From contig NC_081807.1 in assembly GCF_030704535.1 (NCBI RefSeq), positions 4,381,001 to 4,445,000 on the forward strand: a stretch of DNA of 64,000 nt, in the 5' to 3' direction. This stretch comes from Vitis vinifera. Its lineage: Eukaryota; Streptophyta; Magnoliopsida; Vitales; Vitaceae. A model generated the notes under the pieces. It did no database searches, had not been told where the DNA came from, and saw only the letters and a program-made list of their open reading frames with translations. Position 1 is the first letter of the stretch; each line of letters starts with the position of its first letter. The position numbers and the translations under genes were made by a program. This document shows positions 1 to 3,741 of the stretch, piece by piece.

Positions 1-1539
1 TCCCAGCTTGGATGTGAAAGCCTGCCACAGTGCAATCTTCCATGGCCTCATGCGGCACGGAAAGTGGCCCAGGAGGGTACAATCGTAATGTTTCCTTGAC
101 GATGGCTTGCAGGTAGACTAGGTTCTTTATATCTGATCCATCCACTTGGCGATGCTTACCCACATGGATTTCCAGCTCTGCTTGTGCCTTTTTTAGCGCA
201 TGGCGGTTGTTCAGTAGAAGAGAGAGGGCCCATGTAAGAGTGATAGATGTTGTGTCATAGCCAGCTAATATGAGGTTCTGCAATCAACAAATGATGTCGA
301 CTTCAATATGTGATCAGGAAAAGTTTACTTATCAGTAGTGAAATACCATGTTTAGCAGAATGATAAAACAAACCGTGAATAAGGAATCTAAGTGAAATTC
401 GATCACCCCACCTGGTTTGTCATGATAAATACAGATGATAAAGCTATACTGGATTTGATGAATGCTTGTAGAAATGCGAGGAGGGTTTAGGAAATTGGGC
501 AGAAAAAGTTGCAGAAATTATGATAGTAGATGGTGTTTTTTTTTTTCTCTTTTCATTTCATGGTCAAGTTATGGAAGTAGCAGGGACATACCAAGCAAGT
601 GGCCTTAATGACGGTATCAGGATCACGACCAGAGAATTGGCCATCATCTATGACGGAAAGCATGACATGGAGGAAGTCTACCTCAGCCCTGTTGTTGTTT
701 GCGGAAAGCCTTTGCTGGCGATGCTCCTCCACCCACCTTCCAAGCAAATAATCCAACTCCTTAGCTATTTTCTTCATATCAGTGGTATACCCTTTCACCG
801 TGTCCAACCAGCCGAGAAAAGGGATGGCATCCGAGACCATGAACAGCCCCACTAGAAGCATAAAATCGTCCAAGGCCTTTTTGCCCCGTTTTGGCTCATC
901 ATCACAGGCATGGGTCCCAAAATACCGTTTCCCTGCAATTGCTCTCACCATTACATTCATTACCAAGTTCCCAAATCTTTCCTTCATCTCCACCAAAGCG
1001 GGGCTGTCCTTGTTTCGTGCCCATTGCCCATAGAGCTCTTTTATTAAGAACTCAACTTCTGAGTCCTGGACATGTTTGAGCATCTCAAGCTGGCGGTTTG
1101 AGAGGAGCTCAACCATGGCTAGCTTCCGCACATCACGCCAGTATGGTCCATAGGGAGCAAATCCTAACATGGCATGATCATAGCCCATGAGCTTTACTGC
1201 TAAGGATCTTGGTCGAGTGGCGAATACCTTGTCATTGGTAGTGTAGCATTCCTTTGCTACTTCCCAGCTACTAACCACCAGAGCTTTACGAAGGCCAAGA
1301 TGAATGCAAAAGATTGGTCCATACTTATCAGCCATGTCTCCAAGTGTCCGATGTGGCAGCTTGTCTGCTCCTAGAAGATGAAGGTGACCGATAATAGGCC
1401 ATCGCCCGGACGGCTCCTGTGGCCTTTTGCCTTTCTTCTTGTTCCCTTTGGCATTAAATACCGTTGCCAACAACAAACAGATTGTAGCAAGAAGAAGCCC
1501 AAAAACTGTGATATCTTGTGGCTGAAGGGAGAATCCCAT
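1..1539 (-). CDS. P450-1: CYP82-like cytochrome P450, two exons, C-terminus beyond window edge
   Basis: Haem-thiolate monooxygenase of the plant CYP82 family, expected on the ER membrane. Exon 1 (592..1539, 316 codons) starts with MGFSLQPQD and a hydrophobic anchor at about residues 10-28. A basic linker and the proline-rich hinge [11 protein letters not shown] follow. The C-helix reads WRDVRK and the exon ends IKATCL before a GT donor at 591. The intron is 278..591. Exon 2 (1..277) opens NLILAGYDTT, the oxygen-binding I-helix motif, and contains the K-helix KETLR (ExxR). The reading frame stays open to base 1, so the haem-binding loop and about 118 residues lie outside the window. No stop or frameshift is visible. 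CYP82 members act on diverse substrates such as homoterpene precursors, coumarins, flavones and alkaloids, so the substrate cannot be named. Family confidence is high; function is unknown. Confidence 0.9.
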
Positions 1540-2172
1540 GACTAGTTAGTACCAGAGCAAATGTGTCAGTGGAAAGAATCACCTTTCTCAGGTACCATAA
1601 ATAGGAAAAGGCTTCGAAAATGGTTCAAAACTACATTCGCTAGAACACTCACAAGTAGGAATTCACGCTCTACACATGTGCCATCCTAATTTAGTGTAGA
1701 CAGCTCTAGATGATAATAAATAATATGAAGCTCCTTTCAAGTCCTATATAACACGATTTGTTCATTGAAAATCAAGTGGTGTGTTGATTTTGGTATCAAG
1801 TTTTACTTCTCTTTACTTACACGCCACACAGTACACGGTACATAGATATTTTAGAGAACCACATGGTACACATATTTTAGAGAAGTGTGCTTTAAAGGTG
1901 GAGGTGGAGCCCCCTATGGATTCAATCATTCAAAATTAGGAGACTAAAAACAAAAACCTATAGTTATCAGCCGAAAAAGTCGAGATTGTCCACTTCTGCA
2001 AAATCCACATCTTCTTCCTAATCATAAGCCAAAGTAAAGCTATTGGTACGGCAATTGCAGGGAGTATGAGTGTAGCATCTAGCTATGAATGCAATGTGCA
2101 AAATATGTCTCCAATTTGGAGAAGGAACTGGCAACCAAAGATCCAAAATTTATTGTGTCAAATTTTAAGGAA
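1507..2172. repeat. Left arm of a large inverted repeat covering the P450-1 5' end and flank
   Basis: This stretch holds the first codons of P450-1, its presumed promoter and about 600 bases of flank. Its reverse complement recurs almost unchanged at 3088..3741. The same sequence recurs in direct orientation from 56115, the displaced flank of P450-7. It has no supported gene of its own; the short plus-strand frame at 2089..2295 is not conserved in the copies. Confidence 0.9.
1596..1603 (-). promoter_or_regulatory. Possible TATA-like element of P450-1
   Basis: Read on the minus strand this is TATTTATG, about 57 bases upstream of the ATG at 1539. The surrounding DNA recurs in the inverted copy near 3650 and near 56170 upstream of P450-7. 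It is placed by motif and spacing only. A second TATA-like stretch, TTATATAG, lies near 1745 and could be used instead. Confidence 0.3.
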
Positions 2173-2814
2173 AAAAAAAAAAAAATTCTAACTAAACTTT
2201 TTAACCATCAAGTGCATCAAAACAATCCAATTCCCACTTTGCTAATTGCTCCGTCTCATTCACCAATTGATTATCTTGACCCAAAATTTGGGTAGTTTTT
2301 TTAATTAGAATGTAATGAAAATCATTTTGAAAAATTATATATGGTTATAATATTATCCGGTTTCTTGGGCTTTTGAAGTTTTAGTTTGTCTCCGCTTAAA
2401 GGATCTTGAGTTGTTAGGCAAAGAACCCGTGTAACTCACTATATTGTAGAGAAACTAGCTTGTAGAAAAGATAGAGAGGAAGTTGGAGTTAGAGGAGAAT
2501 TTTCTTTCTTTTTAATCTGTAGATAATAAAATAAACTACAACCTCAATAATTTAAAATACTTTCCAGATCAGATAAGATATGATTTAAGAAATTCAAAAT
2601 TCATTTAAGCAAGGAGACCACCTACAAAACAAACCAATGAGGTGAGCAGATTTGCTTCCCACGTTCTCCAAGTCCAAACGTTGGGAACCTGCCTGAGCTA
2701 ATTGGGGAAGTTTGTGCCACACATTTTTTCTTACTTTCCATTCTGCTTAATGACAGAAAAGCTAAGAAGATCATACCTCCTTAGGTTCTATAAACACTAC
2801 CAAACATTTGGAGT
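2173..2814. other. Spacer of the inverted repeat; no gene seen
   Basis: AT-rich non-coding DNA. It has a direct counterpart at about 56760..57370, including the stretch around GGAACCTGCCTGAGC. It resembles 5110..5310 more weakly. No reading frame, RNA gene or element end is supported. Confidence 0.6.
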
Positions 2815-3087
2815 AGACAATAGCTTGCAGGCTATACTCGTAATGTTTCCACTTGACAATGGCTTGTAGGTAGATTAAGTTGTCTTCATAGCTGATTCCT
2901 CCACTAGGCGATGCTTTCCCAATTGGACGTCCAACTCATCTTGTGTTTATTTTTTCAGCACGCAGCTTTTGTTCAACAGAAGAGAAAGGGCCCATGTAGG
3001 CGTGATCACTGTTGTCTCAATCCTGCCAGCTTTTGTTCAACAGAAGAGAAAGGGCCCATGTAGGCGTGATCACTGTTGTCTCAATCC
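2815..3087 (-). pseudogene. CYP82 exon-2 relic with internal 64-bp tandem duplication
   Basis: The minus strand encodes a degraded version of the I-helix to K-helix part of exon 2: relics of [21 protein letters not shown] and the following leucine-rich stretch, with stops and frameshifts. A 64-bp unit beginning AGCTTTTGTTCAACAG is present twice, at 2964..3027 and 3028..3087. The second copy is cut where the inverted repeat arm begins. A near-identical relic with the same tandem duplication is at 57370..57660, so the duplication predates the segmental copying. It is not functional. Confidence 0.75.
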
Positions 3088-3741
3088 TTAAAATTTTTGT
3101 ATCTTTGGCTGCCAGTTCCTTCTCCAAATTGGAGACATATTTTGCACATTGCATTCATAGCTAGATGCTACACTCATACTCCCTGCAATTGCCTTACCAA
3201 TAGCTTGACTTTGGCTTATGATTAGGAAGAAGATGTGGATTTTTCGGAAGTGGACAATCTCTTGACTTTTTCGGCTGATAACTATAGGTTTTTGTTTTTA
3301 GTCTCCTAATTTTGAATGATTGAATCCATAGGGGGCTCCACCTCCACCTTTAAAGCACACTTCTCTAAAATATGTGTACCATGTGGTTCTCTAAAATATC
3401 TATGTACCGTGTGCTGTGTGGCGTGTAAGTAAAGAGAAGTAAAACTTGATACCAAAATCAACACACCACTTGATTTTCAATGAACAAATCGTGTTATATA
3501 GGACTTGAAAGGAGCTTCATATTATTTATTATCATCTAGAGCTGTCTACACTAAATTAGGATGGCACATGTGTAGAGCGTGAATTCCTACTTGTGAGTGT
3601 TCTAGCGAATGTAGTTTTGAACCATTTTCGAAGCCTTTTCCTATTTATGGTACCTGAGAAAGTTGATTCTTTCCACTGACACATTTGCTCTGGTACTAAC
3701 TAGTCATGGGATTCTCCCTTCAGCCACAAGATATCACAAGA
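3088..3741. repeat. Right arm of the inverted repeat (inverted P450 5' end and promoter copy)
   Basis: Reverse complement of 1507..2172 with few differences by eye. It ends with an inverted P450 start at 3706 on the plus strand, which encodes MGFSLQPQDIT and then leaves homology at about 3741 and stops soon after. The orphan promoter would therefore point rightward, opposite to all the P450 genes. A deletion of about 13 bases near 3095 distinguishes it from the left arm. Confidence 0.88.

Follow-up and report, generated by a model that had tools for sequence, protein, structure and literature searches.

A partial inverted duplication of a P450 gene 5' end, probably young, in a tandem P450 array of Vitis vinifera

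Inverted repeats of gene sequence can give rise to small interfering RNAs (siRNAs) in plants. A first-pass annotation of the DNA described here had started from this premise, and it is borne out by two Arabidopsis loci (PMC13213937, PMC3203196). In Cvi-0, VIM4 and VIM2 lie head to head; a deletion brings the genes closer together, transcription reads through, and siRNAs map to the stem (PMC13213937). In Ws, a minority of transcripts run from PAI1 into PAI4 and yield fold-back double-stranded RNA (dsRNA) (PMC3203196, PMC3431836), and PAI1 is expressed from a heterologous upstream promoter (PMC3203196). Here we describe a locus that by structure belongs with the gene-derived inverted repeats of plants. 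It lies in a 64,000-nucleotide stretch of Vitis vinifera DNA (assembly GCF_030704535.1, contig NC_081807.1, positions 4,381,001 to 4,445,000; hereafter the window), where the promoter and first codons of a cytochrome P450 gene, P450-1, are present a second time in inverted orientation. By analogy with PAI and VIM4-VIM2, the locus could behave like these known repeats. A weak literature search, made without the species name, found no prior description of it.

VIM4-VIM2 is the nearest known case, being likewise an inverted repeat of duplicated gene sequence, head to head, with near-identical arms and a local rearrangement (PMC13213937). There, however, whole genes form an inverted repeat of ~6.4 kb around a ~50-bp centre, and siRNAs, methylation and rapid amplification of cDNA ends were measured, whereas the present locus consists of a promoter and 11 codons around a 0.94-kb loop and is described from sequence alone. 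The PAI1-PAI4 locus also lies in a duplicated gene family and has the outside promoter that would be needed here; it differs in its whole genes placed tail to tail, and in the small RNAs and methylation shown there (PMC3203196, PMC3431836). Truncated FOLT2 copies express siRNAs and silence FOLT1, and resemble our locus in being truncated paralog pieces and in the methylation of the target promoter that a transcribed hairpin might bring about here; FOLT2 acts on an unlinked gene, however, with siRNAs and methylation shown, and the word 'inverted' is absent from the available text (PMC8042742).

A newborn inverted duplication must sit near a functional promoter, and the birth of MIR163 also duplicated the donor promoter (PMC1790633). 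Young MIRNA loci are thus like the present one as inverted duplications of gene-family sequence, at MIR163 with the promoter duplicated too. Their foldbacks give discrete DCL1-dependent products (PMC1790633), whereas the window has 0 matches at the gathering threshold among 4227 Rfam families, a result that does not exclude a newborn MIRNA, since such a locus would not be listed. Grapevine CYP82 genes form large clusters with recent block duplications and many pseudogenes, and the window resembles these clusters in its tandem arrays, block duplications and pseudogenes; 'inverted' is again a word absent from the text available (PMC6023221).

The inverted duplication is real, its anatomy is well resolved, and it is ordinary in kind. 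Most probably, a tandem P450 array with rapid turnover has recently produced an inverted copy of part of a gene's 5' end, and this copy would be inert by default. By BLASTN, bases 1507-2151 (arm 1, minus strand) and 3738-3092 (arm 2, plus strand) are inverted copies with 98.3% identity over 647 columns (1115 bits); the top inverted match in 50 dinucleotide shuffles of bases 1-6000 reached 35.6 bits, with a mean of bests of 25.2. A repeat search returned the arms as two segments, 1507-1985/3260-3738 (479 nt, 99%) and 1982-2151/3092-3261 (170 nt, 96%), with 940 nt separating the inner ends. Global alignment of the arms gave 9 mismatches, 2 gap columns and a longest perfect run of 249. BLASTN, global alignment and shuffles therefore agree with the ~650-base inverted repeat of the first codons and 5' flank of P450-1 that the first-pass annotation had reported. 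The inverted arm that it placed at 3088-3741 is also present, with edges that we correct to 3086/3092-3738: homology extends by eye to about 2170 and 3086, across a deletion of ~13 bp in arm 2 just inside the inner edge, where both arm 1 and the sister block described below retain the bases.

P450-1 occupies bases 1-1539 on the minus strand, with its ATG at 1537-1539, exon 1 at 1539-592, an intron with GT..AG ends and exon 2 for its first ~94 codons, where the window ends; neither the list of open reading frames (ORFs) nor tblastn shows a stop or a frameshift in this visible part. Arm 1 comprises its first 11 codons including the ATG and ~610 bp of its own upstream sequence, with a TATA-like box on the minus strand at 1750. 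Arm 2 repeats the promoter and the 11 codons from an ATG at 3706, after which the reading departs from P450-1 and meets a stop after 14 codons (MGFSLQPQDITRCK). Two near-identical inverted arms of gene-family sequence are thus found close together. Such a pair stands out in the window, where 111 of the 117 self-matches of at least 150 bp (E <= 1e-10) are direct; the 6 inverted ones are the arm pair, two matches of arm 2 to the promoters of other copies, and three between long terminal repeat (LTR) elements. Near-identical inverted arms in a repetitive array are a usual setting of misassembly. Nevertheless, nine substitutions, a 2-nt gap and the ~13-bp deletion are unlike a simple chimera, the window contains 0 N bases, and we regard an assembly artefact as very unlikely.

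A sister block at 49.6-57.7 kb shows the same region with the inverted arm absent. The visible gene part of P450-1 recurs at 49638-51177 on the minus strand (95.6% identity to 1-1541) as a pseudogene, its start codon reading ATA and its exons 1 and 2 each broken into two frames by tblastn. The promoter and loop recur, also on the minus strand, at 56115-57675, bases 1538-3088 matching 56115-57654 at 95.5%. A Copia-type LTR element (51179-56114, minus strand) lies at the sister start codon and cuts the promoter off from the gene; it has 209-bp LTRs with 6 differing sites and flanks ATGAT/ATGAC. It is typed by similarity, through an inverted match to the element at 8-11 kb, an ORF of which matches Pfam RVT_2, rve and gag_pre-integrs among others. 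Per 150-bp bin, identity to the sister is 90-98.7% in the gene part and 96-100% in the promoter and loop part; the arm stretch, at 96-100% like the rest of the latter, is therefore not specially conserved.

The loop (2152-3085) consists of further P450-1 upstream flank and, at 2829-3085 on the minus strand, an exon-2 relic of the next upstream P450 copy. The first-pass annotation had recognized this relic, and we find that 3018-2881 aligns with exon-2 residues 10-54 at 56.5% identity (E 7.4e-9). It contains a 64-bp tandem duplication (2963-3026 and 3027-3090) that is also present in the block at 57.5 kb, and because the doubling occurs in both blocks it must be older than the block duplication. 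In the sister, the relic runs past the arm breakpoint to 57675, and an exon-1 relic then follows at 58416-58233. Since the sister relic continues where the arm begins, without an arm, arm 2 was probably added after the block duplication. At the inner edge, the relic reads CTCAATCCT in both blocks, followed by GCCAAATATAAG in the 57.6-kb block and by TAAAATTT beside arm 2; CCTTAAAATTT at this junction is the reverse complement of 2160-2170, and a 3-bp CCT is common to both sources. Capture of the promoter by a foldback or Pack-type transposon would likewise leave inverted arms and a captured gene piece. It is extremely improbable here: no target duplication or terminal repeat was seen at the arm edges, by eye only, and we rejected it since the promoter in arm 1 stands in its native place, attached to its gene, and the sister has the stretch without the arm.

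From the anatomy and orientation of the arms, the armless sister and the CCT match, we infer the following mechanism and order of events for a young partial inverted duplication. A block of P450-1, its promoter and the upstream exon-2 relic would first have been duplicated, giving the sister at 49.6-57.7 kb. Some ~650-665 bp of promoter and start codon would then have been copied back, inverted, with the exon-2 relic as the landing site; a template switch, in replication or in break repair, is the simplest mechanism. Material formerly to the right of the arm would have been lost or replaced in the same event. The default outcome would be an inert by-product with two outward-facing promoters. 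If silent, the locus would offer a snapshot of tandem P450 arrays generating inverted repeats, with the armless sister block as a built-in comparison.

Several points weigh against this reconstruction. Bases 3739-4156 and 5320-5970 showed no mutual match with 57655-58240 and 58500-60000 at E <= 0.01, and the intervening 4157-5319, compared only at E <= 1e-8, matched the sister promoter at 56578-57311 and not 57.7-60 kb. As the sequence right of 3738 has no counterpart at 57.7-60 kb at the sensitivities used, a plain insertion fails to explain both edges; the event may also have removed or replaced material, or the block duplication may have ended at that place. The 3-bp CCT match could be due to chance. 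The arm may instead be older than the block duplication and later lost from the sister. Finally, the arms have a mosaic history, with the loop end more divergent and mostly in arm 1, and gene conversion could blur the order of events.

To sort the differences between the arms, the 56-kb block was used as a third sequence. Bases 1538-1981 hold 3 arm-1-specific differences (one substitution and the two columns of one indel), 1 arm-2-specific and 12 sister-specific; for bases 1982-2152 the corresponding counts are 6, 2 and 1 (Fisher test of arm-1 versus sister counts across the two parts, 0.0066, with the boundary picked after looking). At the loop end, a stretch of 168 bp contains eight of the 10 arm-arm events, as tight a grouping as arose in 212 of 20000 random placements. 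The arms, described at first pass as nearly unchanged, are so in overall identity (98.3%) and not in an even spread of differences. In the remaining loop, 12 of 912 sites differ from the sister. In the outer part, the two arms agree with each other against the sister in 12 states and are separated by 2 substitutions; the source of arm 2 was therefore arm 1 or a close copy outside the sample, and not the 56-kb block. The 2 substitutions in ~443 bp of this outer part suggest a young inverted copy, or else homogenisation of the arms.

The cluster of arm-1-specific changes at 1981-2151 hints at gene conversion or mutation near the rearrangement. To account for the arm-1 excess, it would be enough for an unsampled copy to have converted the arm, or for mutations to have clustered at the rearrangement. 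The relic at 4 kb, tried as donor of the arm-1 changes, showed no sign of that role: among the 7 arm-differing sites at which it has a base, it shares 3 with arm 1 and 3 with arm 2, and 1 matches neither arm.

Relative to the two ATGs, the arm-1 promoter fires left and its arm-2 copy fires right. Because the two point outward, neither should give RNA spanning both arms, and since each carries the same 5' untranslated region (UTR) in the same sense, the two RNAs are not complementary. Rightward transcription from arm 2, as the first-pass annotation had envisaged, is anatomically possible: the promoter copy is there with a TATA-like box at 3495 on the plus strand and the ATG at 3706, and as an orphan promoter it might yield transcripts antisense to the P450 relics at 3.8-6.2 kb. 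Its ORF, however, ends after 14 codons, the P450 sequence that it faces consists of relics on the opposite strand, and we find this role for arm 2 rather unlikely.

Given the outward geometry, a hairpin needs a transcript entering from outside. The only promoter-like piece found by homology to point into the arms is a relic P450 promoter at 4157-5316 (minus strand, the orientation of P450-1), which is 75-85% identical to the promoters of other copies, has no exon 1 in front, and carries a TATA-like box (4321, minus strand) lined up with the one in P450-1. Its position and homology make it a candidate to drive leftward transcription across arm 2, the loop and arm 1. Folding predictions indicate that the arms can pair in such an RNA: the 2235-nt leftward RNA (3741-1507) folds at -1390 kcal/mol, compared to -565, -521, -496 and -476 kcal/mol for four other window stretches of the same length (no shuffles), and 634 of the 647 arm-2 bases are predicted to pair with arm 1. 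Outside transcription entering the locus, most plausibly leftward from 4157-5316, would thus give an RNA duplex of ~640 bp that could be diced. P450-1 would be the main target of such a duplex, either by methylation of the promoter or by way of the 5' UTR.

That the locus is an active natural hairpin, in which read-through RNA from 4157-5316 or an unseen start crosses both arms and is cut by dicing into 21-24 nt RNAs that methylate or repress P450-1, is a possibility that we hold tentatively and consider minor. It concerns function and is compatible with the proposed origin. In its favour are the arms able to pair in one RNA, the rightly oriented relic promoter with its aligned TATA-like box, and the precedents of PAI1-PAI4 read-through and head-to-head VIM4-VIM2 (PMC3203196, PMC13213937). 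The relic promoter is, however, decayed, and its box carries little weight. TATA-like boxes were called from one pattern, which matches 22 times over both strands of 1500-6000; leftward matches also occur at 3772, 4050, 4104 and 4693-4697, and the boxes at 1750, 3495 and 4321 also match on the opposite strand (1745, 3500 and 4316). As the pattern is nearly symmetrical and so frequent, the boxes alone prove no direction.

Termination and methylation also bear on the active hairpin. The leftward strand has AATAAA at 3829, 3530, 2951 and 2154, ATTAAA at 2516 and 2305, and AATGAA at 2605 and 1766; the AATAAA motifs at 3829 and 3530 precede completion of arm 2 on the leftward RNA, although by our estimate the AATAAA number is near the chance expectation of about three. 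Observed/expected CpG in the arms (0.39 and 0.35) lies within the 0.27-0.47 of six other stretches and reveals no methylation footprint. A further step, in which the leftover promoter of a dead P450 copy (4157-5316) drives RNA through its neighbour's inverted promoter, silencing a live member and so tuning the P450 cluster, seems to us quite unlikely. If transcribed, the locus would represent a young natural hairpin directed against promoter sequence and not against a coding region, and would let the birth of a silencing locus be watched.

Possible targets of arm-derived RNAs were counted within the window; the open copy at 62-64 kb has its promoter outside it. An exact match elsewhere in the window exists for 709 of the 1252 arm 21-mers, and 1187 find one once up to 2 mismatches are allowed. 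By kb bin, the latter matches fall at 56 (1129), 29 (154), 4 (66), 51 (34), 31 (6), 43 (6) and 21 (2). The 56-kb promoter is severed from its broken gene, and the copy at 29 kb is an exon-1 fragment (residues 1-110). Other copies appear mostly too diverged from the arms for targeting. Within the window, P450-1 seems to be the one target that matters, as the sole closely matching gene without visible damage. The first-pass proposal of dsRNA aimed at P450-1, P450-7 and related copies thus retains its arm pairing, as the predicted fold indicates. It loses P450-7, which we take to be the copy at 49-56 kb: that copy starts with ATA, breaks frame twice and has a retrotransposon separating its promoter from its ORF. 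It also loses most related copies, and the arm promoters point outward.

As a whole, the window appears to be a cluster of plant P450 genes that arose by duplication. Pfam PF00067 matches exon 1 of P450-1 (E 1.8e-23) and exon 2 of the 62-kb copy (E 2.2e-59), and we tentatively take the P450s to be CYP82-like. With two exon queries, 33 P450 high-scoring segment pairs were found at E <= 0.05, 32 of them on the minus strand; the lone plus-strand pair is arm 2 (E 0.042), and an extra plus-strand match at 14223 (E 0.32) lies inside an LTR element. Searches of NCBIfam gave for the exon-2 piece only sub-cut-off matches to six bacterial P450 models, and no match for exon 1. The nearest solved structure is ferruginol synthase 5ylw (E 1.4e-21, best of 55 sequences listed), which is uninformative on the repeat.

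Between arm 2 and the relic promoter lies a junction segment (3739-4156), in which 3837-4018 is similar to 5366-5546 and 10 residues resemble exon 2 too weakly (E 0.19) to be counted. A 39-bp piece of this segment, 3776-3814, recurs inverted at 46125-46087 with 97% identity.

The array includes broken P450 copies and three probable LTR elements that interrupt P450 copies. At 12734-16519, a probable LTR element with identical 366-bp end repeats (0 mismatches) splits a P450 exon 1 near residue 209, and judging by these repeats its insertion is very recent. Another P450 exon 1 is split near residue 100 by a probable LTR element at 38918-43029, bounded by a 633-bp direct repeat pair (4 mismatches). 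The stretch at 22000-28000 is very AT-rich, with G+C fractions of 0.19-0.23 per 2 kb, and at 23172-23634 a 21-bp unit is repeated about 22 times.

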